A stretch of 64,000 nucleotides of DNA, taken from Fusobacterium varium (GTDB lineage: Bacteria > Fusobacteriota > Fusobacteriia > Fusobacteriales > Fusobacteriaceae). Under the pieces are notes generated by a model. That model did not search any database. It was not told the origin of the DNA and was given only the letters and a program-made list of their open reading frames with translations. Made by a program: the position numbers and the translations under genes. Location of the stretch: NCBI GenBank assembly GCA_900637705.1, contig LR134390.1, forward strand, positions 1,054,001 to 1,118,000. The letters run 5' to 3'. Shown here piece by piece: positions 38,612-62,783 of this stretch; position 1 is the first letter of the stretch, and each line of letters begins with the position of its first letter.

Positions 38612-38626
38612 TTGAAGGAGCGAAAG

Positions 38627-39694
38627 ATGAAAAACAAGAGAAGTACAAAGGAGCAATCATTTTGTTGGCAGGAGAAAAAAGTATTGAGATTATTTAGATG
38701 TCTATATGTGGGAAAGGAACTTGACAGGATTAGAAATCTGTATCTGACTCTTACTGAAATCTACAGTGATTTTAATGGGCAGGATATAAAATACTATACT
38801 GAAACAATAGCTAAATACAGTGGATTAAGCAAAGGTTGGATACCTAAAGGACTAAAAATACTTGAAGAGTTAAAAGTAATAGAATTGGTGGAGGAAAGAA
38901 GCAAGGGGAAATTTAAAGGGAAAAAATTAATATTTACTCCTGAAAACGTTGAAGAAATGGAAAAATTTACTAGAGAAGAAGAAATCAATAACGAGGAAAC
39001 TATTATCGAGGAAACTGTTACTGGTAAAACTATTACTGGAGAAACTATTATCGAGGAAAGTATTGCTGGTAAAACCATCACTGGAGAAACTATTGCTGAG
39101 GAAATTACCATGGGAGAAACCATCACTGGAGAAACTATTACTGGAGAAACTATCACTGGTAAAACCATTACTGGTGAAACCGTTGCTGATTTTTTACAGA
39201 CATCAGAAGATATTTTTGTTTTAGAAGATAATAAAAGATTAAAAGATATAAATAATACACACACAGAGGGAGAAAAAAATATTGAGAACAGAGAATGCAA
39301 AAAAGATGGCATGGAAAACACGCCAGTAGAGATCCAGCAGATATTAAAAAAATACAAAGAGTTGAATCTGCCTGATTTTGACTATAGACCAGAGAACCAT
39401 ATTTTGCTCAGGGCATATGGAGAATTGGGAGCTGCAAAGCTATTTGAAGCACTGACACTGATGTCACAGTCAAAATTTGTAAAAAACAACATGAGTGTGA
39501 ATGCAATCTTTAAAGTGGAAAACCTCAAAAAAGCTATCAATGGGAACTTTAAGGATAAAATATATAAGGGAAAAAAGAGCATTTCTGATACTAAAAAAGA
39601 ATTTAAAGAAATTGAGTATGAAGATTCTACAGGGGAATTTATAAAAGGGCTGCTTGCAAAAACATCTAGAGGGGGAGTAGATGAAGAAATGTGA
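38627..39694 (+). CDS. Phage/plasmid-type replication initiator-like protein with pentapeptide repeat tract
   Basis: A 355-aa protein. Residues ~25-110 look like a winged helix-turn-helix (TLTEIYSDFNGQ, YYTETIAKYSGLSKGWIPKGLKILEEL). Residues ~123-186 are a run of five-residue units of the form [EK]TI[TAI][GE]. The C-terminal third (LPDFDYRPENHILLRAYGELGAAKLFEAL, split over ~250-278) resembles DnaD/replisome-organiser regions. It lies directly before a DnaC-like loader and overlaps it by 14 bp, as in phage replication modules. Start ATG 38627 follows GAAGGAG. Identification is by pattern and context only. Confidence 0.6.
   Translation: MKNKRSTKEQSFCWQEKKVLRLFRCLYVGKELDRIRNLYLTLTEIYSDFNGQDIKYYTETIAKYSGLSKGWIPKGLKILEELKVIELVEERSKGKFKGKKLIFTPENVEEMEKFTREEEINNEETIIEETVTGKTITGETIIEESIAGKTITGETIAEEITMGETITGETITGETITGKTITGETVADFLQTSEDIFVLEDNKRLKDINNTHTEGEKNIENRECKKDGMENTPVEIQQILKKYKELNLPDFDYRPENHILLRAYGELGAAKLFEALTLMSQSKFVKNNMSVNAIFKVENLKKAINGNFKDKIYKGKKSISDTKKEFKEIEYEDSTGEFIKGLLAKTSRGGVDEEM
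38994..39184 (+). repeat. In-frame 15-bp minisatellite inside the initiator-like gene
   Basis: About twelve imperfect copies of a 15-bp unit close to GAAACTATTACTGGT, encoding ETITG, KTITG, ETIIE, ETIAE and variants. The unit length is a multiple of three, so copy-number change would lengthen or shorten a linker without breaking the frame. Confidence 0.85.
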
Positions 39695-40487
39695 ATTTTG
39701 TGGGGAAGATTATGTGAAAAATGAGAATAAATATTTTGCTGCGCTTCCAAAGGGGATTAAAAAAGAGCTGGAATATATACCCAGATGCGATTGTCTAGAG
39801 AAAAATAGGGCAAAGGAATTGGAGAAACTGGAAAAGAAGAGAGTACAGGAGTGTATGAAAAACAAGCTGAAGAAGTGCCTGGATATTTCTGTAATGGATA
39901 AAAAGTTTATAAACAGCAGGTTTGAGAATGCAGATATGAGCAGTAGTCATATGCAGCTGGCTAAAAGATATGCAGAGAATTTTCTGAAGAAGGATAAAAA
40001 AGAGGGTCTGCTTTTTTATGGGGGAGTGGGAACAGGGAAGACATTTGCAAGCGCCTGTATAGCGAACTATCTTATGGAGCAAGGGGAAACAGTGATAGTA
40101 ATCAATCTGGGACTGTATTTGAACAAACTCACCATAGAATGGGGAGAGGGAGAAAAAATTATTCTGGAACAGACAGAAAAATGTGATTTGATGATTATAG
40201 ACGATTTTGGATCTGAAAAAGAACTGGATAAGAATCAGACAGGGTGGAGAGCAGAAAAAATATATAATCTCATAGATGGGAGATACAGGAGTGAGAAGCC
40301 TTTGATAGTATCAACGAATCTGAACTTCAGTGAAGATAGAAACAGATGTGAGATAACTGAAAAGTTTTCAACACAGGGGCAGAACAGGATAAGGGACAGA
40401 ATAATTGATATGTGCTTTCCTGTACGAATAGCAGGAAATAGCAGAAGGGGAATGACACAGGAGAGATTCAGCGAATTTATGGAATAA
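39681..40487 (+). CDS. DnaC/IstB-like ATPase, probable helicase loader
   Basis: A 268-aa AAA+ protein. It has an N-terminal zinc-knuckle-like CEFCGEDY ... CDC, a helical stretch, then Walker A YGGVGTGKTFASACIANYL (~113-131) and Walker B LMIIDDFGSE (~172), arginine-finger region RIRDRIIDMC. This layout is that of phage DnaC-like helicase loaders. Codon use is richer in G/C-ending triplets (CTG, GCG, AGG) than the metabolic genes nearby, a sign of transfer. RBS GAGGGGGAG lies inside the preceding gene. Confidence 0.8.
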   Translation: MKKCEFCGEDYVKNENKYFAALPKGIKKELEYIPRCDCLEKNRAKELEKLEKKRVQECMKNKLKKCLDISVMDKKFINSRFENADMSSSHMQLAKRYAENFLKKDKKEGLLFYGGVGTGKTFASACIANYLMEQGETVIVINLGLYLNKLTIEWGEGEKIILEQTEKCDLMIIDDFGSEKELDKNQTGWRAEKIYNLIDGRYRSEKPLIVSTNLNFSEDRNRCEITEKFSTQGQNRIRDRIIDMCFPVRIAGNSRRGMTQERFSEFME

Positions 40488-40558
40488 AAAATTTGGGAGG
40501 CAGGGAATGAAAAAGAATTTGGAGGAAAGTGGAGCAGAGATAAAGAGAGGGAGTACAG

Positions 40559-40798
40559 GTGAATAGCGAAGAGTATATTTACAGAAAACTTGATACTCTA
40601 TCCTCTCTGGATAAGGTTTTATCTGAAGAAATGGTTAAACATCTAGGGGAGTGGGCAACGATAGACGATGTGGCAAAATATTTTAAAAAACATAGGAATA
40701 CTATATGCTACAAGCTGGAAGCAGGAGATATACTGCATAGAAGAATAGGAACGAGTATTTTGATTTATACAAGAAGCTTGATTTTTCTATTGGAATAA
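40559..40798 (+). CDS. Small helix-turn-helix protein (excisionase-like)
   Basis: A 79-aa protein with GTG start at 40559. GEWATIDDVAKYFKKHRNTICYKLEAGDILHRRIG is a MerR/excisionase-type HTH (shown here in outline, residues ~32-66). GEWATIDDVAKYF is the recognisable core. A 19-codon frame with its own RBS (40507-40566) overlaps its start and may couple translation. It could be a recombination-direction factor or a small regulator of the module. No integrase is present nearby. Confidence 0.55.
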   Translation: MNSEEYIYRKLDTLSSLDKVLSEEMVKHLGEWATIDDVAKYFKKHRNTICYKLEAGDILHRRIGTSILIYTRSLIFLLE

Positions 40799-40905
40799 GA
40801 TGCTAATACACATACATACACAAACAGCCACATTGGTGCACTGGATTGTTATGCGCATTGAGAGTATCATATACGTATGGCAAAAATAAAACAGGAGGCA
40901 GTAAA

Positions 40906-41220
40906 ATGGCAGGAGAAAATCAAGTAATATTAGCAGTGGTTCAAAAAGAAATGGAGAAGGTGGAAAATGCAATCAAGAGGGAAAAGGCTATATTAAAAAA
41001 TATAGACGATATAACAGCAACTCTTGAGCATATAGCAGAGCTAGTAGAATCAGGAAAGGAGTTCCCAGAAAACTCAGCATATGAGTCATACAAAGACTGG
41101 CAGGAAAGCGCAGAGAAGGAAATTAAATCTTATACAACTTCTTTGGAAACAATAGACAAGTACAGAAGTCTACTGGCAGCATACCAGTTTTATGTAAAAA
41201 ATAATACACCAGAAGCTTAA
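40906..41220 (+). CDS. Small helical protein, hypothetical (mobile module)
   Basis: A 104-aa soluble, highly charged, mostly helical protein with heptad-like spacing in MEKVENAIKREKAILKNIDDI (split over ~15-35). RBS AGGAGG lies 7 nt before ATG 40906. It shares the higher-G codon use of this module. A terminator follows at 41228. No known domain. Confidence 0.55.
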   Translation: MAGENQVILAVVQKEMEKVENAIKREKAILKNIDDITATLEHIAELVESGKEFPENSAYESYKDWQESAEKEIKSYTTSLETIDKYRSLLAAYQFYVKNNTPEA

Positions 41221-41227
41221 AGAAAAG

Positions 41228-41258
41228 AGGCTGTGGCAGAAGCTGCAGTCTTTTTTTT
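41228..41258 (+). terminator. Intrinsic terminator in the mobile-like module
   Basis: AGGCTG/CAGTCT (41228-41233 with 41246-41251), then seven T. It follows the stop at 41220. Confidence 0.65.
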
Positions 41259-41287
41259 ACCCAAAAATAAAAAACGGAGGAAAATTT

Positions 41288-41470
41288 ATGAAAACAATAA
41301 TAATAAAATTTTTAAAATATTTTATCAGCAGATGGTTTGGAACAAAGGCAATGGAAAAAGTAGTGATAACAGCTTTGGGAGAATTGGTAAAAAGAACAGA
41401 AAGCAAAATAGATGACAAGATATACGAGGCAGTATTTGAAAAACTGGAGGAGGAGAAAAATGATAAATAA
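41288..41470 (+). CDS. Small protein, hypothetical, phage-like
   Basis: A 60-aa protein with a hydrophobic/basic N-terminus (MKTIIIKFLKYFISRWFG) and an acidic helical tail. RBS GGAGG precedes the ATG. It overlaps the next gene by 11 bp. Pairs of tiny overlapping genes of this sort are typical of phage lysis or holin-accessory regions, but nothing proves that here. Confidence 0.45.
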   Translation: MKTIIIKFLKYFISRWFGTKAMEKVVITALGELVKRTESKIDDKIYEAVFEKLEEEKNDK

Positions 41471-41696
41471 TGCAGAACTGTTTTTTAAAATAATAACTAC
41501 AACAGGAACTTTTTTTCTGGCATACCACAGGTACACATTATCATTGTTTGAGAAAAAAATAGATAAAGGGGAGTGCGAAAAAGAAAGAATCTTTGCAGAA
41601 AAATTCAGAATAGAAAATATAAAAACACTGACTGAGGGAATAAGCAGAATTGAAGAAAGAATGACAAGGATAGAGGAGTATCTGATGAAGCATTAA
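41460..41696 (+). CDS. Small membrane-anchored coiled-coil protein, hypothetical
   Basis: A 78-aa protein: a short hydrophobic segment (AELFFKIITTTGTFFLAYH, residues 5-23), then a charged helix ending ISRIEERMTRIEEYLMKH with heptad character. RBS GGAGGAGG precedes ATG 41460. The layout resembles holin-adjacent or spanin-like small phage proteins. Function unknown. Confidence 0.45.
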   Translation: MINNAELFFKIITTTGTFFLAYHRYTLSLFEKKIDKGECEKERIFAEKFRIENIKTLTEGISRIEERMTRIEEYLMKH

Positions 41697-41746: not shown

Positions 41747-42138
41747 AAAAAGTTCTTGTTTATACATAAAGGCGAACACATTCCCTATATTTTCCCTATC
41801 ATTGTACTCTTTAAATTTGTAAAAGTCAACATAAAAGTTTTGGGAGGGGAATGGGGTCCAAAAAATGAGGTATTAAAAATTGGGAGGTTAGAGCGTCTAA
41901 AAGTTCGCTTTTATGTATAAAAAGGAACTTTTCTCAGTTATCGGCTTAATTTCTACATTTAAATTTTTAATTTTAATTAGGATTTTGGAGCAAAAAATTG
42001 AAAAAAATTTTAAGAAAAATTTAAATAAAAAATATATAAAAACAAACTTGGGGAGGAAAAATATGATTGAAAAGATTATGAAGGCAGTAAAAAGCAGCAA
42101 CAAAAGAAGAGGAAGAAATATAACAATAGGGGCAGTAA
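41747..42138 (+). repeat. Autotransporter upstream region, direct repeat copy 1 (other copy 45327-45711)
   Basis: About 390 bp running from the left inverted site through the promoter segment to the signal-peptide codons is closely repeated at 45327-45711. The block from about 41855 to 41912 (GGGTCC...TTCGCTTTTAT) is almost base-for-base identical. The last part (AAATAAAAAATATATAAAAA) occurs a third time before the second autotransporter at 46336-46371. Confidence 0.85.
41752..41928. promoter_or_regulatory. Putative invertible promoter 1: IR-flanked segment upstream of autotransporter 1
   Basis: Two 26-bp sites (41752-41777 and 41903-41928) lie in inverted orientation around 125 bp. Read inward-out, each starts GTTCGC(C/T), has centre TTTAT-GT-ATAAA and ends GAAC, a 12+2+12 layout. 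The arms match at about 23 of 26 positions. Inside, on the minus strand, is a consensus promoter: TTGACT (41829-41824), 17 bp, TACAAT (41806-41801). It points away from the autotransporter at 42063. Inversion would aim it at that gene. Each arm can also form a hairpin, so paired terminators are the alternative reading. Confidence 0.6.
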
Positions 42139-45100
42139 TTGGATTCCTTTTGTCGTGTACAGCAGTAATGGGTGAAGATAAAGTACAGTTAGATATAGCT
42201 GTAAATGATGAAAAAATAAAGTTTAATGGTGAAGAATATAATAGTGAAACTCACAAATTTTTAGACAATACTTTTGATGGAGAAACTTATACTAACAATG
42301 AGGTGATTTTTAAAGAAACTTCAGATATGAATGATACTTCTACTGGGATAAAATTGGCATTATCAGATAAAACTATAAATATAATAAATAATGGAATAAT
42401 AGCAGCTAGAGGTGGAGGAAATGATGGTTATGGAATAGTTATTAGTTCAGGGACAATAGGAATTTTGACTAACAACGGACTAGTATTAGGTTATGGTGCT
42501 AATATGTCTTATGGTATATATAATGATTATTCAGGAAATATAACCACATTAATTAATAATGGACTAATAACTGCTAGCGAAGCTAGTAGTCCATGTGGAA
42601 TACAAAATAATGGAACAATAACTACACTAATTAACAACAAGTTTATAATTAGTAGCGAGTATGGAATAGAAAATGATGGAACAATAGGAACCTTAGTAAC
42701 ATCAGGAGCTAGTAATGGGATAAGTAGTAGTAACTCAAAAATAGGAAGCCTATTGAATAATGGAGTAATAGTAAGTGATGGGACTGAAACAGGAATATAT
42801 AATGGAGGGGCGTCAGCAGAAATGGACAACCTAAATAATCTAGGAGTTGTTTATGGAGAGAAAAATGCTATATCTAATACTGTTAATGGAGTTGTTTATG
42901 GAACTATAACAAGTGCAAAGAACTATGGAATACTTGTAAATGGAAGTGATACTAATGAGGTACTTGATGGATTAGATATTGTTGATTCATCTACTGCAGA
43001 TGCAAATAAATTAGTAAACTATGGACTTATAATAAAAAATAATGGTGAGGGTAAAATAGAGGCAGGAGCTGGAGGAGATCAAGATATATCAATACCATTC
43101 TATGATATTGAAGAAAATATCATGGGAGAAAGAAAGGTAAAAGTAGAAAATGTAACAGGAAAAAATGGTGATAAAAGTAATTCATTTGAAGGAGATAAAG
43201 AAAACCATATATTAAATGCTTTAACAAATACATATAAGGTTGGTGACAAAAATGATGAAGCTGAAGTGAAAGGTTCAATAGTCAATGCTTATGGAACAGC
43301 AGTTGTATTTGAAGAAGCAAATAAACAATTAACTTTGTCAGGAACAATAGTAAATGGTGGAATAGATGGGAATGCAACCATATTAGGAAGTGGTGGAGAG
43401 GATACACTAATACTTCAGTCAGGAGAAATTAAATATACAGATAAAGGAGTGGAAAAATCTATAACTCAAAATACTATAGTTAATGGAAATATAGATATGG
43501 GAGCTGGAGTTGATACCCTTACAATAGGAGATGGAACAATAATTAATGGAATTCTTGATGGTGGAGATAGCAATTCTAAAGATACTCTTAATTTTGGAAT
43601 AAGTTCAGGTGCTAAGTCAAATTCAGCAGACAGTCAAGGAATAAATATTATGCACAATATATCTAATTTCGAAAATATAAATATAAATACAAATGTTACT
43701 CTATTTAATCAAACTGTTAAAGCTGGTGGAACAGTAGAAGAATTAAAAGTAACAGGTGTAGAGAGCATAAAAATAGAAAAAGATGGAAATCTTATCCTAA
43801 GAATAAATGGAACAAGTGGAAACTCACATGCTTTATCAAGTAATACAGGAGGAGTAATAGAATCAAATGGAGGAAAACTTCTTTTAGCTCTAAATGGAGT
43901 ATCAGATGGAACTACAATAGATATGGGAATGAAGCTTGGAGATGGATTGTATGGTGTAGAAAATAATGATATTAAATACAGAGATTTATTTACTTTAGAA
44001 ACAACTTCTCTATTACACTCAGTTAGTAAAAATGAGCAGGATAATACAAAAGTAACTGTTACAACTAAATCTACACTGCCATTATCACCAGATACCCCTG
44101 AAGATGTAAATTATGAAAAATTAAATAAAATATATCAGAGTATGAGAGTTGTAGATGGAGTGAAGGAATTTGATGTAGATAGTGATGAGAAACTTTCAAC
44201 ATTCTTAGGATATTTAAATGACATCTATGCAGGGAATCCATATTCATATTCAAATGAGCTTTCAAGAAAATCAGTGGGAATGTTTAGAGATATAGCCACA
44301 GAAAATCAATTCAAACCAGAGCTGAATAAATGGTTGATAATGGGTGGATTAACTCATGCAGATGGTGGAACAAAAGATACATACTATGGAAAAGGATATT
44401 ATACATATGATATAGGAAGTTCAGATATAGACGCAGATACTAAGATAACAGGAGCATATATGCTTGGAGAGTATGGAGTATCAGACACATTGACTTATGG
44501 AGTAGTAATTGGAGGAAACAAGCTTAAATCTAACTTGTCTAATGGGTCAAAAGTAGATGGAGATGCGCTATATATGGGAGCGTATGCTAAGAAGTATGTA
44601 GGAAATCTAAAAGTAACAGGAGGATTAGGGCTACAGTATGGAGATTATGATGCAGATAGATTTGCAGCAGGAAAAGGAATAACAGAAACAAGAAGTTATT
44701 CAGATAACTATAATGATATGACATATGATATTTATCTAAATGGAAGATATTCTAATCCAATGGGAGATAACTTCTTCTTAGAACCATATGGAACATTGTC
44801 ATATACATATATCAAGCAGGATAGCGCAGATGAAGGAAGCAAGGTATTAGCAATAGAAACAGATTCAAAATCATTTGACTACACAGCAGCTAAAGTGGGA
44901 GTAGACATTAAGAAAGTAATACCACATGAAAAGGGAAAAAGTACACTGTCAGCAGGAGTGAGCTATACAAGACTTCTTACTGGGGCAGATGAAGAAAATA
45001 TCACAGGAAGATTTAAAGGAGAAAATGCAACTGACTTTGATATTTTGGTGGCTCATAAAAATGAACAAAGCATAGGACTAAATGCTAAGTACGCACTTGA

Positions 45101-45230
45101 ACTTGAAAATGGAATTCTGTTTGATGTAAAGGGAAGCTACTCATTAGAGAGAGATTCACACAAAGGAACAGGTAAAAACAGAAACAAAGGTGAATGGATA
45201 GTAGGTGCAGGACTGGGGTATAAGTTCTAG
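42063..45230 (+). CDS. Type V autotransporter 1 (surface/adhesin-like)
   Basis: A 1055-aa outer-membrane autotransporter. It has an extended signal sequence (MIEKIMKAVKSSNKRRGRN, then ITIGAVIGFLLSCTAVMG). The passenger (~38-735) is Asn/Gly/Thr-rich with repeated NNGxI-type turns expected of a beta-helix. The 12-strand barrel covers ~740-1055 (NQFKPELNKWLIMGG, FFLEPYGTLSYTY, ending GEWIVGAGLGYKF with the C-terminal Phe). Start ATG 42063 follows GGGGAGG; frames reaching further upstream are non-coding. The barrel is almost identical to that of 46383-49523, while the passengers differ. Surface role inferred; ligand unknown. Probably controlled by the invertible promoter upstream. Confidence 0.92.
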   Translation: MIEKIMKAVKSSNKRRGRNITIGAVIGFLLSCTAVMGEDKVQLDIAVNDEKIKFNGEEYNSETHKFLDNTFDGETYTNNEVIFKETSDMNDTSTGIKLALSDKTINIINNGIIAARGGGNDGYGIVISSGTIGILTNNGLVLGYGANMSYGIYNDYSGNITTLINNGLITASEASSPCGIQNNGTITTLINNKFIISSEYGIENDGTIGTLVTSGASNGISSSNSKIGSLLNNGVIVSDGTETGIYNGGASAEMDNLNNLGVVYGEKNAISNTVNGVVYGTITSAKNYGILVNGSDTNEVLDGLDIVDSSTADANKLVNYGLIIKNNGEGKIEAGAGGDQDISIPFYDIEENIMGERKVKVENVTGKNGDKSNSFEGDKENHILNALTNTYKVGDKNDEAEVKGSIVNAYGTAVVFEEANKQLTLSGTIVNGGIDGNATILGSGGEDTLILQSGEIKYTDKGVEKSITQNTIVNGNIDMGAGVDTLTIGDGTIINGILDGGDSNSKDTLNFGISSGAKSNSADSQGINIMHNISNFENININTNVTLFNQTVKAGGTVEELKVTGVESIKIEKDGNLILRINGTSGNSHALSSNTGGVIESNGGKLLLALNGVSDGTTIDMGMKLGDGLYGVENNDIKYRDLFTLETTSLLHSVSKNEQDNTKVTVTTKSTLPLSPDTPEDVNYEKLNKIYQSMRVVDGVKEFDVDSDEKLSTFLGYLNDIYAGNPYSYSNELSRKSVGMFRDIATENQFKPELNKWLIMGGLTHADGGTKDTYYGKGYYTYDIGSSDIDADTKITGAYMLGEYGVSDTLTYGVVIGGNKLKSNLSNGSKVDGDALYMGAYAKKYVGNLKVTGGLGLQYGDYDADRFAAGKGITETRSYSDNYNDMTYDIYLNGRYSNPMGDNFFLEPYGTLSYTYIKQDSADEGSKVLAIETDSKSFDYTAAKVGVDIKKVIPHEKGKSTLSAGVSYTRLLTGADEENITGRFKGENATDFDILVAHKNEQSIGLNAKYALELENGILFDVKGSYSLERDSHKGTGKNRNKGEWIVGAGLGYKF

Positions 45231-45326
45231 AATAAATAATACTTTAATCAAAATACACAGGGTACTCTAAATAATTTTTTTAAAGAGAGCTTGAGTAGAG
45301 AAAACATTGATTAAACCTGAATAAAC

Positions 45327-45711
45327 AAAAAAGTGTTCCCTTTTATCTATAAAGGCGAACACTTTTCTGATGTTTTCCCTACCATTATAATCTTTAAATT
45401 TGGAAAAGTCAATATAAAAGATTTGGGAGGAAAACGGGGTCCAAAAAATGAGGTATTAAAAATTGGGAGGTTAGAGCGTCTAAAAGTTCGCTTTTATAGA
45501 TAAAGAGGAACTTTTTTCAGTTACCGTCTTAATTTCTACAAATAAATTCTCAATTTTAATTTGGATTTTGGAGTAGAAAATTGAAAAAATTTCAAATAAA
45601 AATATATAAAAACAAACTTTGGGAGGAAAATTTGTGATTGAAAAAGTTATGGAAGTAGTAAAAAGCAGCAACAAAAAGAGAAGTAGAAATATAACAATAG
45701 GCGCAGGACTG
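45327..45711 (+). repeat. Autotransporter upstream region, direct repeat copy 2
   Basis: This matches 41747-42138 from the left inverted site to the NITIGA codons, then jumps straight into autotransporter 3'-end sequence (GCAGGACTGGGG). The 45231-45326 stretch before it holds no gene. Confidence 0.85.
45335..45511. promoter_or_regulatory. Putative invertible promoter 2: IR-flanked segment upstream of scar-HU-HU-autotransporter 2
   Basis: This has the same design as 41752-41928: inverted 26-bp sites at 45335-45360 and 45486-45511 around exactly 125 bp. The centre is TTTAT-AG-ATAAA in both arms (the first pair has GT). On the minus strand lies TTGACT (45412-45407), 17 bp, TATAAT (45389-45384), a full consensus promoter facing away from the genes at 45634-49523. 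Flipping it would drive the scar ORF, both HU-like genes and autotransporter 2, which follow without another clear promoter. Confidence 0.6.
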
Positions 45712-45726
45712 GGGGATAAGTTCTAG
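45634..45726 (+). pseudogene. In-frame deletion scar of a third autotransporter gene
   Basis: A 30-codon frame with GTG start and RBS GGGAGG. Codons 1-24 equal the autotransporter signal start (MIEKVMEVVKSSNKK..., through NITIGA), and codons 25-30 equal the extreme C-terminus (GLGDKF, compare GLGYKF). The whole ~1000-codon middle is gone. The joint falls at GGNGCAG, present at both ends of the intact genes, so deletion by recombination at this microhomology is likely. The frame and stop are preserved; the peptide itself is unlikely to work. Confidence 0.85.
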
Positions 45727-45746
45727 CAATAAAAATGGGGGAAGTA

Positions 45747-46040
45747 ATGAAAGAAGGGGAATTTATAAGGTTCTATAGAGATAGAAATTGTTTGAGGAGC
45801 ATTAAGGAAGCAAAAAAAAAGATAGACTTGTTTTGGACTGTTGTGTTGAAGGCTTTAGATGAAGATGGAAAAGTATTATTAAAAGACTGGGGAGTATTTG
45901 AGAAAAAAGAGGTAGCTCCTAGAAAAATAATGACACCGAGAATGGAAAAAGAAAGAGTGATAAAAGCAGGGGAAAAGATAATATTCAGAACAGGAACAGG
46001 CTTAAAAACTCTTGTCAATGGAGCTGATGCTGATGAATAA
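45747..46040 (+). CDS. HU/IHF-family-like DNA-binding protein 1
   Basis: A 97-aa protein. The C-terminal half carries the HU arm pattern: LKDWGVFEKKEVAPRKIMTP (~45-64), then IFRTGTGLKTLVNG (~80-93; compare HU FKAGKALKDAVN). The N-terminal helices are more divergent than in housekeeping HU. ATG 45747 follows GGGGGAAG; an ATG at 45735 overlaps the RBS. It is translationally coupled to the next HU-like gene and placed between the second invertible segment and autotransporter 2. A DNA-bending role is inferred. Confidence 0.7.
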   Translation: MKEGEFIRFYRDRNCLRSIKEAKKKIDLFWTVVLKALDEDGKVLLKDWGVFEKKEVAPRKIMTPRMEKERVIKAGEKIIFRTGTGLKTLVNGADADE

Positions 46041-46305
46041 GAGAGAGCTGGCAAAGATATACAGCAAAATAAGTCAGGGAAAGGTATCACAAAAAGCAGC
46101 CCTAGAGGAAATAAATATATTTACACAAACCTTGCAGGAAGCCTTGATGAAATATGATTCAGTAACATTTGTCAACATAGGAGTATTTGAAATACTGGAA
46201 AGAAAGCCGAGATTAGTTAGCAATCCATCGACTAGGGAGATAATGAAAATATATCCTAAGAAGGTAGTAAGATTTAGAGCATCAAAAAATATAATGAAAC
46301 CTTAA
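46033..46305 (+). CDS. HU/IHF-family-like DNA-binding protein 2
   Basis: A 90-aa protein with HU architecture: MNKRELAKIYSKISQGKVSQKAALEEINIF (helices, split over 1-30), VTFVNIGVFEILERKPRLVSNPSTRE (~46-71) and VVRFRASKNIMKP at the end. The GxFxxxxRxxRxxxNPxT pattern is clear. It overlaps the first HU-like gene by 8 bp, which suggests a heterodimer like IHF alpha/beta (inference). The start ATG 46033 has GGAG 9 nt upstream. Confidence 0.75.
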   Translation: MNKRELAKIYSKISQGKVSQKAALEEINIFTQTLQEALMKYDSVTFVNIGVFEILERKPRLVSNPSTREIMKIYPKKVVRFRASKNIMKP

Positions 46306-46382
46306 ATCTTATCTGTAGAATAGAAAATTAAAGAAAAAAACTTAAATAAAAAATATATAAAAACAAACTTGGAGGAAAACTT

Positions 46383-49300
46383 GTGATTGAAAAAGTTATG
46401 AAGGCAGTAAAAAGGGGAAATAAAAAGAGAAGTAGAAATATAACAATAGGTGCAGTGATTGGATTTTTGTTGTCATGTACAGCAGTAATGGGAGCAGATA
46501 TTGGATTAGAAATAACTCAAAAAGCAGATGAAGAAATAAAATTTGACGGTATTGAATATGACAGAGATAGACATAAATTTTCAGATAATACTTTTAAAGA
46601 CAATACTTATACAAACAATATGACAATTTCTGCAGAAAATGCTTCAGGGAATGCTTATGGAATAAAACTTAAATTATCAGGTGAAAGTAGTATAAGTATA
46701 ATAAATAATGGAACAATATCAGGTAATTCTACAAAAAGTACTGGAAATGGGATATCCAATGAATCTGGAATAATAGAAACATTGACTAATAACGGTTTAA
46801 TATCTGGTTCAAGTCCTACTAATGGATATGGGATATCCAGTAATGGAATAGGAATATTGACTAATAACGGTTTAATATCTGGTTCAAGTTCTGCTAATGG
46901 ATATGGGATATACAGTAATAAGGGAACAATAGAAACATTGACTAATAATGGGATAATATCTGGTAGTTCAGGTAGTAATGGAAATGGGATAAAGATTAAT
47001 AATGGAAAAATAGAAACATTGACTAATAATGGAATAATATCTGGTTCAGGTAGTAATGGATATGGGATAGCCACTGCTTTTGGAGCAATAGAAACATTGG
47101 CTAATACAGGAGTTATTTATGGAAAAGCTAATGCTATAGTGAGAGGCAATGGAGATATAGGTACAGCAAACAACTATGGAATACTTGTAAATGGAAATGA
47201 TGGAGGAAAAGTAGTTAATAACTTAACAATTGTTAATGCTATTCCTGATGAAGATAATACTAATTTAAGTAAAAATGAAATATTAAACAGAGGACTGATA
47301 TTTAAAGCATTAGATACAGGGTATAAAGTAGAAACAGAAGCCTATAAACAATTTGGAGCAATCTATAAGGATAAGGATATTGTAATTGGTTATGAGAAAG
47401 ATGATGAAAATCCTGATTCAAGTAATCCAATAACAAAAAAATATACAATAATCAATGCTAAAGCTATTGAAAGTGAAAGCGATATGACTGGAATAAATGC
47501 TGCAACTGAAGAAGTTAATATAACTGGAACTGAAAGTTTAAAATTAGAAAATGGAATTTTAACATATGGAGATTCTCAAAAAGAAAAAATTTCTTCAGAT
47601 AAAGGGTATATTTTAAATGGTATAACAGATACTTTGAAAGTTACAAAAAAACATAATGAACTTAATGATTCAATAATTAATGCATATAAGACAGCAATAG
47701 TTATGGAAGGTGATAGTACTTATTTGGAACTTAATAATACAATAGTTAATGGAGGGTTAGGTGATAATTCTCCTGTAATATTAACAAGAGGAGATAAAAA
47801 CTTTTTAACTATAAAAGGAGATACGATAGTTAATGGAGAAATAAAATCAGAGGGAAGATTAAATACTTTAAATCTCTATGGAAAAGAAAATAAGACAAGA
47901 AGCAGTAATACTGAAAGTATGAATATTATTAATAATATAACAGGATTTGGAAGAATACAGATAGAAAATGATGTCACTTTTTTTGAAACAGCTAAAGTAA
48001 CAGAAGTAGAAAGAATAAATATAAATAATGGAGGAACTCTCAATCTTAGATTAAAGAAAGATGAAGGAGCTTCAAAAGCAACTCATGCTCTTTCATCAGG
48101 AAATACAGGTCTTCTTATAGCTGGACTGGAAAAGGGAGGTTCTTCAACAGAAGGGACACTTAATTTCATAACTAATGGAATGGGAACTGGTACTATCATA
48201 GATATGGGTGGAGCAAAATTAGAAAATGTAAATCTAAAAACAAATAGTATTGTGTATAAGTTTGAAATAGTAGAAACGGAAAATGAAAATATTAGCGCAA
48301 ATATAGGAGATATAAAACTTGACTTAAAAGGAAGTTTAGAAGAAATAGTTAATAGTGGAAGCATAACTTTTGATAATTATCCAAAATATAGTCTTATTCC
48401 AGATGAAACAGAGTATAAGGCATTAGATAAAATATATCAAAGTTCAAAAACAGATGATAATATGAATGCCTTAGTAGAGATACTGGATTCATCTTCAGAT
48501 GAAGAACAATGGAAAAGACTTCTTTCATTTTTAGGAGGAATATATACAGAAACTCCATACTCATTTTCAAGCGAACTTTCAAGAAAATCAGCTGGAATGT
48601 TTAGAGATATAATCACAGAGAACCAGTTCAAACCAAATTTAAATCAATGGTTGATAATGGGTGGACTAACTCATAGAGATGGAGGAACTAAAGACAGCTA
48701 CTATGGACAGAATTATCATGGAATAGATGCAGGTACAGCAGATGTAGATGTGGATATGAAGCTTACTGGAGCTTACGCCCTTGGTAAATATGGATATTCA
48801 GAAAATGTATCATTAGGAGTAACAGCAGGAGGAAACAAAAGTGAAGCTAAACTTCCAATGTCAAAAGTAAAAGGAAACAGTGGATATATAGGTGCTTTTG
48901 CAGAAAACTACAGAGGAAACCTTACACTAAAAGCAGGAGCAGGAATTCAATATTCAGAATATGATGCAGACAGAGCAACACTGGGAGGACACAGCTACAG
49001 TGAGAAATATTCAGATATGGCATATGATATTTACCTAAATGGAAGATATTCTCATAACATAGGAGAAAACCTGTTCTTAGAACCATATGGAACACTGTCA
49101 TATACATATGTAGACCAAGAAAGCGCAGATGAAGGAAGCAAAGTATTAGCAATAGAAACAGATTCAAAATCATTTGATTATACAGCAGCTAAAGTGGGAG
49201 TAGACCTTAAGAAAGTAATACCACATGAAAAGGGAAAAAGCACACTTTCAGCAGGGGTAAGCTATACAAGGCTACTTACTGGTGCAGATGAAGAGAATAT

Positions 49301-49523
49301 CACAGGAAGATTCAAAGGTGGAAGCGACTTTGATATTTTAGTAGCTCATAAAAATGAACACAGCATAGGACTAAATGCTAAATATGCTCTTGAACTTGAA
49401 AATGGAATCCTATTTGATGTAAAAGGAAGCTATTCAGTAGAGAGAGATTCACATAATGGAAATGGAAAAAACAGAAATAAAGGTGAATGGATAGTAGGAG
49501 CAGGAATAGGGTACAAGTTCTAA
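46383..49523 (+). CDS. Type V autotransporter 2 (surface/adhesin-like)
   Basis: A 1046-aa protein, GTG start at 46383 after GGAGG. The signal start (MIEKVMKAVKRGNKKRSRN, ITIGAVIGFLLSCTAVMGA) is the family one. Passenger residues ~95-245 hold five to six copies of a ~25-residue unit (IETLTNNGLISGSS-xxNGYGI), nearly identical in DNA. A more irregular beta-helix region follows. The barrel covers ~735-1046 (NQFKPNLNQWLIMGG ... GEWIVGAGIGYKF). The barrel DNA from about 49050 on is nearly identical to autotransporter 1, which gives a substrate for recombination. Function is inferred as surface adhesion or interaction. Confidence 0.92.
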   Translation: MIEKVMKAVKRGNKKRSRNITIGAVIGFLLSCTAVMGADIGLEITQKADEEIKFDGIEYDRDRHKFSDNTFKDNTYTNNMTISAENASGNAYGIKLKLSGESSISIINNGTISGNSTKSTGNGISNESGIIETLTNNGLISGSSPTNGYGISSNGIGILTNNGLISGSSSANGYGIYSNKGTIETLTNNGIISGSSGSNGNGIKINNGKIETLTNNGIISGSGSNGYGIATAFGAIETLANTGVIYGKANAIVRGNGDIGTANNYGILVNGNDGGKVVNNLTIVNAIPDEDNTNLSKNEILNRGLIFKALDTGYKVETEAYKQFGAIYKDKDIVIGYEKDDENPDSSNPITKKYTIINAKAIESESDMTGINAATEEVNITGTESLKLENGILTYGDSQKEKISSDKGYILNGITDTLKVTKKHNELNDSIINAYKTAIVMEGDSTYLELNNTIVNGGLGDNSPVILTRGDKNFLTIKGDTIVNGEIKSEGRLNTLNLYGKENKTRSSNTESMNIINNITGFGRIQIENDVTFFETAKVTEVERININNGGTLNLRLKKDEGASKATHALSSGNTGLLIAGLEKGGSSTEGTLNFITNGMGTGTIIDMGGAKLENVNLKTNSIVYKFEIVETENENISANIGDIKLDLKGSLEEIVNSGSITFDNYPKYSLIPDETEYKALDKIYQSSKTDDNMNALVEILDSSSDEEQWKRLLSFLGGIYTETPYSFSSELSRKSAGMFRDIITENQFKPNLNQWLIMGGLTHRDGGTKDSYYGQNYHGIDAGTADVDVDMKLTGAYALGKYGYSENVSLGVTAGGNKSEAKLPMSKVKGNSGYIGAFAENYRGNLTLKAGAGIQYSEYDADRATLGGHSYSEKYSDMAYDIYLNGRYSHNIGENLFLEPYGTLSYTYVDQESADEGSKVLAIETDSKSFDYTAAKVGVDLKKVIPHEKGKSTLSAGVSYTRLLTGADEENITGRFKGGSDFDILVAHKNEHSIGLNAKYALELENGILFDVKGSYSVERDSHNGNGKNRNKGEWIVGAGIGYKF

Positions 49524-49689
49524 TGATGACAACAAGAAATTTTCAGAATGAAAGATATTTTTCTGTTTTTAAATTCTTTACTATTTATTTACCAGGTAAC
49601 AGGGAATTTTTAAAAAGAAAGTATTAAAAGAAATAAGTACAGTATGGTAAAAAACAATAAAATTCAAAATATCAAAAATAAGTAATCAA

Positions 49690-49727
49690 AAAGACCAAAG
49701 GGATTAAATTTCCTTTGGTCTTTTTTT
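49690..49727. terminator. Bidirectional terminator between autotransporter 2 and the MOSC gene
   Basis: AAAGACCAAAGGA pairs with TCCTTTGGTCTTT (49690-49702 with 49711-49723), with T-runs on both strands. It ends both convergent transcripts. The 166 bp before it hold no gene. Confidence 0.85.
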
Positions 49728-50163
49728 ATTTTTCTACTACAGATATTTCATCACCGATTTTTACAATACCACCCTTTAAAACAATGGTAAAAATACCTTC
49801 TCTAGGCATAATACAGTCACCTACAGTATGGAATATGGCACAATGTGAATGACATTCTTTTCCTATTTGAGTTACTTCAAGAAGAATATTTTCATTAATT
49901 TTTAATTTTGTACCAATAGGAAGCTTTGCTAAATCAATTCCTTCAACTATGAGATTTTCTCCAAAATCTCCCTGATCAACATTTCCACCTTTTTTTATAA
50001 AATCAGATATTTTTTCATTTGAAAGCAGACTGACTTGTCTATGCCAGTTGCCAGCATGAGCATCATTTTTAAGACCATAATTTTCTATTAGTACACCCTC
50101 TTTTATATTTATCTTTTGAGTTCCTTTTTTTTCACTTATACAAACTGCTAAAATTTTTCCCAT
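49726..50163 (-). CDS. MOSC-domain protein
   Basis: A 145-aa stand-alone MOSC domain: GLKNDAHAGNWHRQVSLLS (~29-47), GDFGENLIVEGIDLAKLPIG (~65-84) and the conserved Cys in GKECHSHCAIF (~102). MOSC domains handle sulfurated molybdenum cofactor. The gene follows moaA on the same strand by 8 bp, with GGAGG inside the moaA end. It probably belongs to cofactor maturation for a molybdenum hydroxylase encoded elsewhere. Confidence 0.9.
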   Translation of the reverse strand: MGKILAVCISEKKGTQKINIKEGVLIENYGLKNDAHAGNWHRQVSLLSNEKISDFIKKGGNVDQGDFGENLIVEGIDLAKLPIGTKLKINENILLEVTQIGKECHSHCAIFHTVGDCIMPREGIFTIVLKGGIVKIGDEISVVEK

Positions 50164-56473: not shown

Positions 56474-59400
56474 TTATTGATTTTCAACTATTTCTTTGAC
56501 TTTAATATAATCTATTTTTCCTGTACCAAGTAAAGGCAGTTTATCTACTGTAATAATTTTTTTAGGTACCCATAATTCACTGTAAAGTTTTTCTTTAAAA
56601 TAGTTTAGTATATCTTTAGTATCAACATTTTCTTTTTCTGTAACTAAAACCAGTTGCTCTCCTTTTTTCTCATCTGGAATAGAAATAACAGCATTGGAAA
56701 AATCCTTGATATAGCCGTTTATTATTTCTTCTACAGCTGTAAGAGAAACCATTTCACCAGCTATTTTAGCAAATCTTTTGGCTCTTCCTAAAATGGTAAT
56801 AAATTTATTTTCATCAATATCTACAATATCTCCAGTGTCGTACCAACCACCTTCAGGTTGAGTTATTTTTCCATCTTTTAAATAACCTAGCATAATATTT
56901 TTACCTTTTATCCACAATCGTCCCCCTTTTTCTATTCCAGGAACAGCCTCTAATTTATACTCTATATCTGGTAAAAGTCTACCAACACTTCCTCTTTTTT
57001 GATGCATAGGAGTATTTACAGAAATAACTGGACTGGCCTCTGTTACCCCATATCCTTCTAAAACTCTTACTCCAAATCTTTCCAACCATTGATAATAAGT
57101 AGAATCTTTTAATTTCTCTGCTCCCACTATTGCATATTTTATATTATAGAAATCATAAGGATTAGCCTGTTTCGCATATCCATTAAAAAATGTGTCAGTT
57201 CCACATAAAATTGTTGAATTAGAATCATAAACTAATTCTGGAACTATTTTGTAATGCACAGGAGAAGGATAGAAAAATACTTTTATCCCTGAAAGCAATG
57301 GAAGTATAGTTCCGATTCCTAGTCCAAATGAATGGAACATAGGAAGAGCATTAAACAGAATATCTTGACTTGTAAAGGAAAATAATGAAGATATCTGAAA
57401 TCTGTTTGCCTGTAAATTTTCATGACTTAAAAGCACAGCTTTTGGAATCCCTTCAGACCCTGATGTAAAAAGAATAGTACAAGGATCATTATAATTTATT
57501 TGAGGAACTTTTTTCAAAAGATAATTAAGGAAAGCAGATAATTTTGTAATCAGATTTATCTTTGATTGAAATTCTTCAAGATATATAATTTTTACTCCAT
57601 TTTCTTCTAAAGTTTTAATAAGCTCTTCTAATTGAAGCATCTCTATCATTTTTTTAGCTGTAATAATAGTTGATATTTCAGCAGTTTTTATACAGGATAA
57701 TATTTGACTTTTTCCTTGAGTGAAGTTAATCATAGCAGGAATTTTGCCAATAGACTGTAATCCAAAGAAAACCAAAGCATTTATGATGGAGTTAGGAAGC
57801 ACTATTCCAATATTTTTTTCTTTGAAGTTTCTTTTTATAGCCTCCCCAATAACATATGATTTTAATATAAAATTTCTATAGTTCATAGGCTGTCTGGCAA
57901 TATCTTCTGCAATCATATGTTTTTTGCCATGTATTTTAGCAGCATTCAGCAATGATTTAAAAACATTTTCTCTTACTGGAGAAGATTTAAAAATCATAGA
58001 AGTCATAATCTCATAAAGCTGATCTCCTATTTTTCCTCTTTTTGTACTTCCTTTATCATCTTCAGATAATTTTATCTTAGTTGGAGGAAGTATTGTAATC
58101 TTTATTCTAGGGAAAAATTTAGTTTTTAATTTAGTTTTTAAATATGAAAATTTTGAATATTGAGCACCATCTATTCTGATAGGTAAGATATTAGCATTGG
58201 CTTTTAAAGCTACCACTCCAGCTCCTTCATAAACTTTCATTAAAGAACCTGTTACAGTTATTCTTCCCTCTGGAAATATAATACATTTTTCATTGTTCTT
58301 CAATTCGTTAATAAGTTGTTTTAATGCTAGAGGATTTGTAGGGTCAATAGGATATAGCTTTACCACTGGTTTAAATATTCTAATCCACCATTTTTTAGAA
58401 ATTGTTGTATTAATTGCAAATATCAATTTTTCTGGCATAAATGAAGCAACAAGCAATCCATCTAATAAAGAGGTATGGTTTGCTATTATAAGAACTCTTT
58501 TCCCAGCTTTTTCATAATTTTCAAGACCAGTGACCTCCATTTTGAATATGAGAGATAAAATACTTTGTGCCATAGATCTGGGAAGTGCGTCTGGAATAAT
58601 AGTAAGTATATATAGAGATACACATAGACAAATAATAGATATCAAGAAAAATATATCTGATATGATGAATCCTATTTTAAAAAGTCCAAGAACAAGAGCA
58701 GAGAAAATGACTATTCCAACAGCGTTCATTATATTGTTTCCAGCAATGATAGTAGCTAGATATTTTTTAGGTGCTTTATTTTGTAAAAAAGCATTTAAAG
58801 GAACTATATACATTCCACCAAAAAAAGCGAGGAAAAATAATATAAAAGATATTTTTATTCCAGGTATTGACTTGAAAAATACTACTGTTCCTATATGAGT
58901 GTCAGGAGTAACATAGTCCTTAGTAAAAAGGTAAAGGAAGAAAGTAGCAATTCCTATCCCGATAGAACTCAATGGAACAAATGTAGGGTGAACAATTCCT
59001 CTCATAACTTTTGTACATACGAAGGTTCCAGCAGCCATACCTAATGAAAATATAAACATGAATACAGCAACAGCATTTCTTGAAAGTCCTAATAGGTCAC
59101 TGCACATTGGATAAAGCTGAGTAAGAATGACTGCACCAAGTGCCCAAAACCATGAGAGTCCTAAGATAGTAATATAAATACTTCTTATTTCTGAGATTTT
59201 CTTTAATGTCAGCCTTAGAGTTTTGAATATATTAAAACTCATAGATAAATCAGGTCTTGGGGCTGGAGCAGAAGGTATTTTAAAACTGCTCAACATACCA
59301 ACCAAAGAGCAAAATACAAGTATTCCAACAGTTATGTTGGGAGAAGTAATATGAGCTCCTAATATAGTTCCTATTAATATTGAAAAATATGTAGCACCAT

Positions 59401-59830
59401 CTATTATAGCATTTCCTTCTATCAACTCACACTCTTCAAGATGTTGTGGGATAATAGAATATTTAACAGGTCCAAAAAAAGCAGACTGCACACTCATAAA
59501 AAACAGTATAATAATAAGTCCAGAATAAAATTTAAAGAAAACTGCAACAGCAGTAAGGAGCATTAATACAAACTCTATACATTTTAAAATTTTAGCAATT
59601 TTATCCCTATGATATTTATCAGCCAGCTGTCCAGCAGTGGCAGATAAAAAGAAAAAGGGAAGAATGAAGAGAATAGAAATAAAATTCAGCAACATTCCTT
59701 CATGGGCTCTATTTAATGTAAGATTGTAAGTAATGAAAGCCATGATTGCCGTTTTTAACATATTGTCATTAAAAGCTCCAAAAAATTGAGTTATAAATAA
59801 AGGACAAAATCTTTTATTTTTTAGTAACAT
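56474..59830 (-). CDS. aas: LplT-Aas fusion: lysophospholipid transporter, acyltransferase and acyl-ACP synthetase
   Basis: A 1118-aa inner-membrane protein with three parts. Residues ~1-410 are an MFS transporter like LplT (FFGAFNDNMLKTAIMAF near the start). Residues ~430-620 are a PlsC acyltransferase: NHTSLLD (HxxxxD-type, ~441) and FPEGRITVTG (~510). Residues ~640-1118 are an AMP-forming synthetase: ILFTSGSEGIPKAVLLSH (~772), EGYGVTEASPV (~925) and a C-terminal TGKIDYIKV. Together these flip lyso-phospholipids inward and re-acylate them. Monocistronic; RBS GGAGG overlaps just upstream of ATG 59830. Confidence 0.93.
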   Translation of the reverse strand: MLLKNKRFCPLFITQFFGAFNDNMLKTAIMAFITYNLTLNRAHEGMLLNFISILFILPFFFLSATAGQLADKYHRDKIAKILKCIEFVLMLLTAVAVFFKFYSGLIIILFFMSVQSAFFGPVKYSIIPQHLEECELIEGNAIIDGATYFSILIGTILGAHITSPNITVGILVFCSLVGMLSSFKIPSAPAPRPDLSMSFNIFKTLRLTLKKISEIRSIYITILGLSWFWALGAVILTQLYPMCSDLLGLSRNAVAVFMFIFSLGMAAGTFVCTKVMRGIVHPTFVPLSSIGIGIATFFLYLFTKDYVTPDTHIGTVVFFKSIPGIKISFILFFLAFFGGMYIVPLNAFLQNKAPKKYLATIIAGNNIMNAVGIVIFSALVLGLFKIGFIISDIFFLISIICLCVSLYILTIIPDALPRSMAQSILSLIFKMEVTGLENYEKAGKRVLIIANHTSLLDGLLVASFMPEKLIFAINTTISKKWWIRIFKPVVKLYPIDPTNPLALKQLINELKNNEKCIIFPEGRITVTGSLMKVYEGAGVVALKANANILPIRIDGAQYSKFSYLKTKLKTKFFPRIKITILPPTKIKLSEDDKGSTKRGKIGDQLYEIMTSMIFKSSPVRENVFKSLLNAAKIHGKKHMIAEDIARQPMNYRNFILKSYVIGEAIKRNFKEKNIGIVLPNSIINALVFFGLQSIGKIPAMINFTQGKSQILSCIKTAEISTIITAKKMIEMLQLEELIKTLEENGVKIIYLEEFQSKINLITKLSAFLNYLLKKVPQINYNDPCTILFTSGSEGIPKAVLLSHENLQANRFQISSLFSFTSQDILFNALPMFHSFGLGIGTILPLLSGIKVFFYPSPVHYKIVPELVYDSNSTILCGTDTFFNGYAKQANPYDFYNIKYAIVGAEKLKDSTYYQWLERFGVRVLEGYGVTEASPVISVNTPMHQKRGSVGRLLPDIEYKLEAVPGIEKGGRLWIKGKNIMLGYLKDGKITQPEGGWYDTGDIVDIDENKFITILGRAKRFAKIAGEMVSLTAVEEIINGYIKDFSNAVISIPDEKKGEQLVLVTEKENVDTKDILNYFKEKLYSELWVPKKIITVDKLPLLGTGKIDYIKVKEIVENQ

Positions 59831-59958
59831 ATATCCTCCAAAACATAATTTATCTTTAAAATTAATAATTAAAATATCTTACTATACAAGAGTATATAGA
59901 TATTTATTTAAGTATATATTATTTTTTCTTTTTTTCAAAGAACTCTTTATATAAATAT

Positions 59959-60627
59959 TTACGCCTTATTATTCAGAATCTTTTTTCTTAATTTCCAGTC
60001 AGGCATATATTTTTCCACAAAATTCCAAAATTCTTTTTGATGATGTGGATATGGAAGATGTGAAAGTTCGTGCAGAACCACATATTCAATAGCAGTAATA
60101 GGTTTTTCTATAAGATGAAGATTATATGTAATTATTTTTCTTGTAGTATTACATGAACCCCATCTGCTTTTCATACTTCTTATTTTTATCTCCTTAGGAA
60201 GAAAACCTATTTTTTCCCCTATTTCTACAGTAAGTTTTTCCAAAATAATGGTAATTTTTTCTCTAAACCATTTTTCGAGAATTTTCTTTTTTTCATCAGG
60301 AGAATCAGTTTTTTTACAATAAATATATATTTTTTCTTCATCTTGTTCTATAAAATTTTTCTCAGATGGCAGAATTTCTAAAATATATTTTTTTCCCAGA
60401 TAAAAAATTTCATCACCATTCAGATAAGAAATAGATTTTCTATTGGAGTAATATTCAGTGATGGAATTTATTTTCTCAATTATCCATTTTTCTTTCTGTA
60501 CAATGAGCTGTTCTATATATTTTTGAGGAACCCTTTTAGGTGCAGATACCAGTACCTCACCATTTGAATTTATTTTTATTATTATGTTTTTTATTTTTTT
60601 TCTTGTCACAGTTACTTTAAAATTCAT
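59959..60627 (-). CDS. SprT/YgjP-like zinc metallopeptidase
   Basis: A 222-aa protein of the M48-like YgjP/DUF45 family. The N-terminal DUF45 region (VLVSAPKRVPQKYIEQLI, MKSRWGSCNTTRKIITYNL) is followed by the zinc motif HELSHLPYPHHQKEFW (HExxH, ~175), with a third ligand likely in the downstream His/Glu. Soluble, with no signal peptide. The physiological substrate is unknown. A weak RBS (AGAAAGGAA) precedes the ATG. It is divergent from lepA. Confidence 0.88.
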   Translation of the reverse strand: MNFKVTVTRKKIKNIIIKINSNGEVLVSAPKRVPQKYIEQLIVQKEKWIIEKINSITEYYSNRKSISYLNGDEIFYLGKKYILEILPSEKNFIEQDEEKIYIYCKKTDSPDEKKKILEKWFREKITIILEKLTVEIGEKIGFLPKEIKIRSMKSRWGSCNTTRKIITYNLHLIEKPITAIEYVVLHELSHLPYPHHQKEFWNFVEKYMPDWKLRKKILNNKA

Positions 60628-60688
60628 AAAATTCCTTTCTAAAAATAGTTTTTTATTAATTATACCATATAAGAGAACTCCTTTTTAG

Positions 60689-60717
60689 TTGATTTTTTTT
60701 GGATAATCTTTTATAAT
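60689..60717 (+). promoter_or_regulatory. Sigma70-type promoter of lepA
   Basis: TTGATT (60689-60694), 17-bp spacer, TATAAT (60712-60717), 35 nt before the lepA ATG. Confidence 0.75.
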
Positions 60718-60752
60718 GTTGTGTAAGTGATAAAATAATTAGGAGGAAATTT

Positions 60753-62554: not shown

Positions 62555-62783
62555 TCAGTAGAATAAAAGAGAGTGACTAATAATCATAGAAAAATAGATT
62601 TAGAATTTTTTAATAGAAAAGTTTATTATTAATTTAGTTCATAAAAAATAAAATACTCACAGGATATTGTTTTTTATGATTTGCTTACTTTATTAATTAC
62701 AAGAATTTTTTATTATCGAGATTTCTAAAATTTATTCTGGTTTTTTAGTTATTCTCTTTTTAACAGTAAAGGGGGAGAATGTT

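Follow-up and report, generated by a model that had tools for sequence, protein, structure and literature searches.

Organization of the locus

The window analysed here, a stretch of 64,000 nucleotides, comprises bases 1054001-1118000 of a single 3,302,398-bp contig, the genome that we label G000. Upstream of an autotransporter gene (autotransporter 2) it contains two inverted 26-bp sites whose outer ends delimit a segment of 177 bp with a promoter inside (Table 1). An initial annotation had read this segment as a putative invertible promoter preceding a scar ORF, an HU-like pair and an autotransporter; the open reading frames and their PF00216 and PF03797 matches bear out that gene order, and by both coordinates and repeat search the sites enclose exactly 125 bp, as it had stated. 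Both sites are quasi-palindromic, with a 10-bp arm on either side of a 6-bp core. The left site and the reverse complement of the right are identical at 23 of 26 positions, the right core (ATAGAT on the plus strand) being the reverse complement of the left core ATCTAT. With its flanks, the pair forms the longest inverted repeat (45324-45360 / 45486-45522) among 74 inverted pairs between positions 43000 and 51000. Across the whole window, arms matching at 20 or more of 26 positions at spacings of 100-250 bp numbered 52 (best 23), compared with 3-14 (best 20-21) in eight Markov-2 shuffles.

Table 1. Features of the putative promoter switch, the genes downstream of it and related elements. Positions refer to the window unless a genome is named.
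Feature	Position	Strand	Details
Paralogous putative invertible segment 1	41752-41928		Sites 41752-41777 and 41903-41928; core ATACAT/ATGTAT; before autotransporter 1 (about 42063-45230)
Hairpin around left site	45324-45371		Terminator-like fold (-20.5 kcal/mol, U-rich tail) in RNA made from the OFF-facing promoter
Left (upstream) putative recombination site	45335-45360	+	Outer half GTTCCCTTTT, core ATCTAT at 45345-45350, inner half AAAGGCGAAC
Putative invertible insert	45361-45485		125 bp; member of a conserved, aligned insert family
Sigma-70-type promoter TTGACT-N17-TATAAT	45384-45412	-	-35 at 45412-45407, -10 at 45389-45384; OFF, away from the genes
Right (downstream) putative recombination site	45486-45511	-	Inverted relative to the left site; core ATAGAT on + at 45496-45501
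Scar ORF	45634-45726	+	Start of an autotransporter, with signal peptide, fused to its own last residues
HU/IHF-like protein 1	45735-46040	+	PF00216
HU/IHF-like protein 2	46012-46305	+	PF00216
Autotransporter 2	46383-49523	+	1046 aa; PF03797 beta-domain, E 2.2e-24
Intrinsic-terminator-like hairpin	49688-49725	+	After autotransporter 2
Candidate tyrosine recombinase	G000:C1:358177-358773	-	198 aa; PF00589, E 4.2e-22; outside the window

The promoter was located on the minus strand at 45412-45384, facing away from the genes as annotated. Matching at 11 of 12 positions, it is the best of the 21 promoter-like matches in 45200-49800, a number that, for matches of any quality, compares with 23.3 in shuffles. 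Inversion would, by calculation, place it on the plus strand with the -35 element at 45434-45439 and the -10 element at 45457-45462. The hairpin around the left site lies about 105 bp past the stop of autotransporter 1; since just 2 of the 22 loci of the window genome have one as strong, it is not a general feature.

Both HU-like ORFs match PF00216 (E 2.5e-11 and 2.9e-17), and for the second an ATG near 46036 is a likelier start than the listed TTG. Scanning 45200-49800 revealed no terminator-like site other than the plus-strand hairpin at 49688-49725, and none on the plus strand inside the unit; this hairpin is the likely end of the transcription unit. A single transcript over 45634-49523, as the annotation had envisaged, is therefore possible. 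Further upstream, before autotransporter 1, lies a set of small ORFs (38612-41696) that includes an IstB-like ATPase (39681-40487, PF01695 E 7.2e-13). ORFs like these are found again 5' of several further autotransporter loci of G000, as if the units had spread as a cassette.

A dispersed family of paired sites

We searched the whole genome for the site pattern, allowing up to three mismatches and using the reversed pattern as a control. The window genome gave 28 forward and 27 reverse matches, compared with 0 and 0 for the control, and these read out as 22 pairs and four solo sites. Four genomes of the genus together yielded 76 pairs, of which one was dropped as a chance pair; the 75 retained are distributed as 22 in G000 and 21, 19 and 13 in the sister genomes G010, G009 and G008. 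The site is present in these 4 of 61 family genomes and absent from the other 57. Most pairs have an autotransporter as cargo; elsewhere the cargo consists of HU-like pairs or an outer-membrane-protein-like ORF and, in the sister genomes, also of an ORF beginning MLFNSYEF that we take to be MBOAT-like.

A scan of viral contigs with the paired pattern returned no stretches. A scan of genome contigs, a set that may leave out near relatives, returned 20 stretches with a single site each, none titled Fusobacterium. Eight Rahnella records each carry a single exact match to the site pattern, which probably reflects shared local sequence.

The initial annotation had treated the two loci in the window (cores ATACAT and ATAGAT) as independent evidence for a switch, on the grounds of their common spacing, promoter placement and direction. 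The two are, however, paralogues whose inserts resemble each other; the spacing that they have in common is inherited and does not count as independent evidence.

Coupling of the site cores

We aligned every left site to its reverse-complemented partner and scored agreement position by position. Positions 11-16 were identical in 74 of 75 pairs, whereas 20000 permutations of partners within genomes gave a mean of 24.5 and a maximum of 42. Among 32 loci with dissimilar inserts the core was identical in all 32 (permuted mean 8.3, maximum 17). Between loci, agreement was 0.46 at position 13, 0.60 at position 14, 0.86 at position 16 and 0.92 at position 11, and nine different cores occur when a core and its reverse complement are counted as one. 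At arm positions 5, 7, 9 and 10, by contrast, agreement within pairs was not above that between loci.

Tyrosine recombinases exchange strands across an overlap of 6-8 bp, serine recombinases across 2 bp. The coupling covers positions 11-16 and not 13-14 alone, so a 6-bp coupled core inside uncoupled arms fits the overlap size of tyrosine recombinases rather than that of serine invertases. A serine-invertase model, suggested by the 26-bp site and its variable central dinucleotide, was dropped because the coupling spans six positions; coupling of the central dinucleotide alone, as in the Hin/Mpi kind, was not what we found. The one mismatched pair of the 75 is a chimeric locus of the window genome (1564473/1564624, spanning 1564473-1564649) with cores ATACAT and ATAGAT, and it is predicted to be unable to invert because its two cores differ. 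At one pair of G010 (G010:C1:1744702-1744868) the core, ATATAT, is fully palindromic, and the outcome of recombination there would not be fixed to inversion.

The sites might instead serve as paired terminators, kissing RNA hairpins or repressor operators rather than as recombination sites, in keeping with their quasi-palindromic form of 10 + 6 + 10 bp and with the terminator-like folding of some of them. Yet stem pairing is not kept among the 150 sites (positions 5-22, 30 versus 70.8 when shuffled; 6-21, 123 versus 121.6; 7-20, 87 versus 71.3), and such roles leave unexplained both an inverted insert and the junctions between outer site halves that are described below. We regard these roles as very improbable. 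A model of RNA hairpins or kissing loops was rejected because stem pairing is not maintained, and a general terminator role because folding energies at the 22 loci showed no consistent difference by orientation (means -8.3 and -8.8 kcal/mol).

Among tandem neighbours no more than 8 kb apart, the cores differ in 10 of 12 cases when solo sites are included (permuted mean 6.0, P 0.013) and in 8 of 9 when they are not (P 0.014), a result that we treat only as a lead because the counts are low and part of the arrays is duplicated, and hence not independent, with one chimeric locus counted twice. The pair of loci in the window, with cores ATACAT and ATAGAT, fits this pattern. On a tentative reading, which we think possible but would not favour, one small recombinase would run a regulon of more than 20 switches, with the 6-bp core serving as an address: recombination would take place only between sites that share a core, the differing cores of neighbours would spare the genes between them, and the HU/IHF-like cargo pairs might feed back on inversion as DNA-bending accessories. 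The neighbour-core counts support the address part of this reading; the HU/IHF feedback we infer.

A candidate recombinase

A 198-aa protein encoded outside the window is a candidate tyrosine recombinase (Table 1). Relatives of at least 75% identity occur in exactly the four site-bearing genomes of the 61 in the family and in none of the other 57, where the best match reaches 57%. G000 has one such copy, which is intact, G008 and G009 have two each and G010 has three. The R, K, HxxR, H and Y positions, presumably the catalytic residues, are conserved in all 12 aligned rows, and a search of solved-structure sequences with the candidate returned Xer-type matches only (4a8e, E 1.2e-07; 5hxy, E 7.4e-05). 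Co-occurrence is what links the protein to the sites, and it points to the 198-aa protein as the putative acting recombinase.

Inversion could also be real and be carried out by another enzyme, such as a genus-wide 190-aa tyrosine recombinase, an Xer-type recombinase or a 456-aa serine recombinase. The window genome contains eight tyrosine-recombinase matches above the cut-off and one serine recombinase, a 456-aa open frame. However, the 190-aa class, encoded beside an HU gene, is found throughout the genus, including in genomes without sites; the 6-bp coupled core is unlike a 2-bp serine overlap; and the 198-aa family alone tracks the sites, in 4 of 4 site-bearing genomes versus 0 of 57 others. 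An enzyme other than the 198-aa protein thus seems unlikely to us.

Further copies of the family were encountered in several settings. At 1140660-1141127 of the window genome lies a decayed second copy (57% identity, five stops), adjoining the genes that flank an intact second copy in the three sister genomes. Two G010 copies (G010:C1:3156432 and 3237238) encode identical proteins in similar surroundings, likely through recent duplication, and one of them lies about 3.5 kb from a paired site. G010 also has a plasmid stretch (11,501 bases 100% identical to AP017969.1 of Fusobacterium varium) on which, at 56679-63201 of AP017969.1, two diverged family recombinases (57% and 54% identity) lie beside an autotransporter gene; this accession is plasmid pFV113-g1-1 (PMC5720691). 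Near five distant relatives (49-57% identity) and one recombinase of genome G003, no similar paired sites were seen among the longest inverted repeats listed.

Inversion, possible excision and orientation

Two paralogous loci of G008, 2099442 and 2279891, have flanks that are 90.0% and 89.4% identical in the same orientation, whereas their inserts align with a score of 147 when one is inverted and 33 when both are read directly (maximum of 200 shuffles, 24). An insert inverted between flanks of the same orientation means that inversion has happened. Compared with G000 1145044 and with G009 108402, 218373 and 44397, too, the insert at 2099442 is inverted, and flipping it by script restored a full-length alignment. 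By eye, a weak promoter match (TTGATT-N17-TATATA) points towards the HU gene at 2099442 and away from the gene in the aligned others. Both orientations are thus seen in one locus family across G008, G000 and G009, and the window locus is seen in one, so the single fixed orientation that the initial annotation had named as its refuting outcome may still apply there. Locus 2099442 is the only clear inverted one among the 75: a possible second, G009 3783353, is equivocal and was not counted, with scores of 114 inverted and 79.5 direct against its nearest relative and parts that align both ways.

Two solo sites of the window genome, 595782 and 2105540, consist of a left outer half joined to a right one; they lack the promoter segment and keep opposite core readings. 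They look as excision at the cores would leave them.

We scored orientation by a fixed rule that demanded recognised cargo no further than 800 bp away and a promoter with two mismatches or fewer. Under it, 51 of the 75 loci point away from the cargo and two towards it, 14 have no strong promoter and eight no recognised cargo; G008 165899 and 554740 are among those that the rule leaves out. At the two cargo-facing loci, G000 3056156 and G009 2467943, the sites match the pattern less well (1 and 2, and 2 and 3, mismatches), and these loci may be locked ON. The bias has two readings: a strong preference for OFF in culture, imposed by the recombinase or by selection, or quiescence of many loci. 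In G010, a promoter-like match facing the gene (TTTACA-18-TATAAT) is found as well at eight OFF loci, so OFF may not be silent there.

Because 51 of the 53 scorable loci point away, OFF might be fixed in practice. The segment would then have inverted once and would now be effectively fixed facing upstream, its product a short or antisense RNA running into the 3' end of autotransporter 1; at the window locus the left site, as a terminator-like hairpin of -20.5 kcal/mol for the outward RNA, would suit this. For the coupling to be kept over many different cores, however, exchange must continue or selection must act on it; orientation differs within one paralogous set; and with a strong hairpin at just 2 of 22 loci an RNA product is not a shared feature. 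We therefore consider a fixed OFF state quite unlikely.

Discussion

We conclude that 45335-45511 is, with high probability, a phase-variable and mostly OFF promoter switch, one of a network that would control autotransporters, HU-like pairs and other surface genes through one small recombinase. The putative invertible promoter of the initial annotation thus gains support, on comparative grounds, from the 75 paired loci, the coupling of their cores, a co-distributed recombinase and a sister-genome locus found inverted, in addition to the local anatomy. In the mechanism that we propose, the 198-aa tyrosine recombinase would bind the 10-bp arms of the two inverted 26-bp sites, and strand exchange across their identical 6-bp cores would invert the segment. 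With the segment OFF, as sequenced, the promoter would fire upstream into the left-site hairpin, with no better-than-chance promoter for the genes. In the ON orientation, transcription would start near 45470 and read through the scar ORF, the HU-like pair and autotransporter 2 up to the terminator at 49688-49725. Were such switching to take place today, its benefit might be a varied and mostly silent surface.

Autotransporters number 44 in Fusobacterium varium Fv113-g1 and 32 in ATCC 27725, and six of those in Fv113-g1 show relatively high expression (PMC5720691), which agrees with most being silent but is no test of the switch. The main text of that paper contains no words beginning 'invert', 'promoter' or 'recombinase' and describes no switch (PMC5720691). 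Literature searches, with sources available in part, turned up nothing recognisable on invertible promoters in Fusobacterium, but some of the loci could be listed in the PhaseFinder survey (Jiang et al. 2019).

Gut fusobacteria of the F. varium group have unusually many autotransporters. If the proposed network operates, many surface proteins could be switched on and off by the bacterium. If most autotransporters sit behind invertible promoters that are OFF during culture, standard cultures and reference genomes would reveal chiefly their silent state, and studies of adhesion or immunity would see only a changing subset of them. Natural controls for how overlap identity governs inversion are at hand in the different cores, the chimeric locus and the putative excision scars.

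Among known systems, Mpi is a serine recombinase, and the Fusobacterium system differs from it in its tyrosine-recombinase family and its 6-bp coupled core. The two would be alike in plan, a single recombinase inverting many promoters of surface structures, seven of them in Bacteroides fragilis (PMC7241687). RecV of Clostridioides difficile is, as proposed here, a tyrosine recombinase that inverts several unlinked segments before surface and regulatory genes; strain R20291 has seven invertible sequences, with an eighth elsewhere (PMC7446863, PMC7241687). What sets the present system apart from RecV, on features rather than by sequence comparison, is 22 paired loci in one genome, autotransporter and HU-like cargo and a Gram-negative host, Fusobacterium. 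In uropathogenic Escherichia coli, too, an invertible promoter element (ipuS) drives an autotransporter (upaE) and is flipped by FimB-like tyrosine recombinases (PMC6083910). That element is single, with 7-bp inverted repeats and adjoining recombinase genes (PMC6083910), whereas here the elements are many and dispersed, with 26-bp sites. Inverted recombination sites around a promoter-bearing segment are found at the Fusobacterium switch loci, and identical overlaps, as expected of invertible promoters of the tyrosine-recombinase kind, in 74 of 75 pairs; judged by this anatomy, the switches would work like those of RecV, Mpi and the FimB type.
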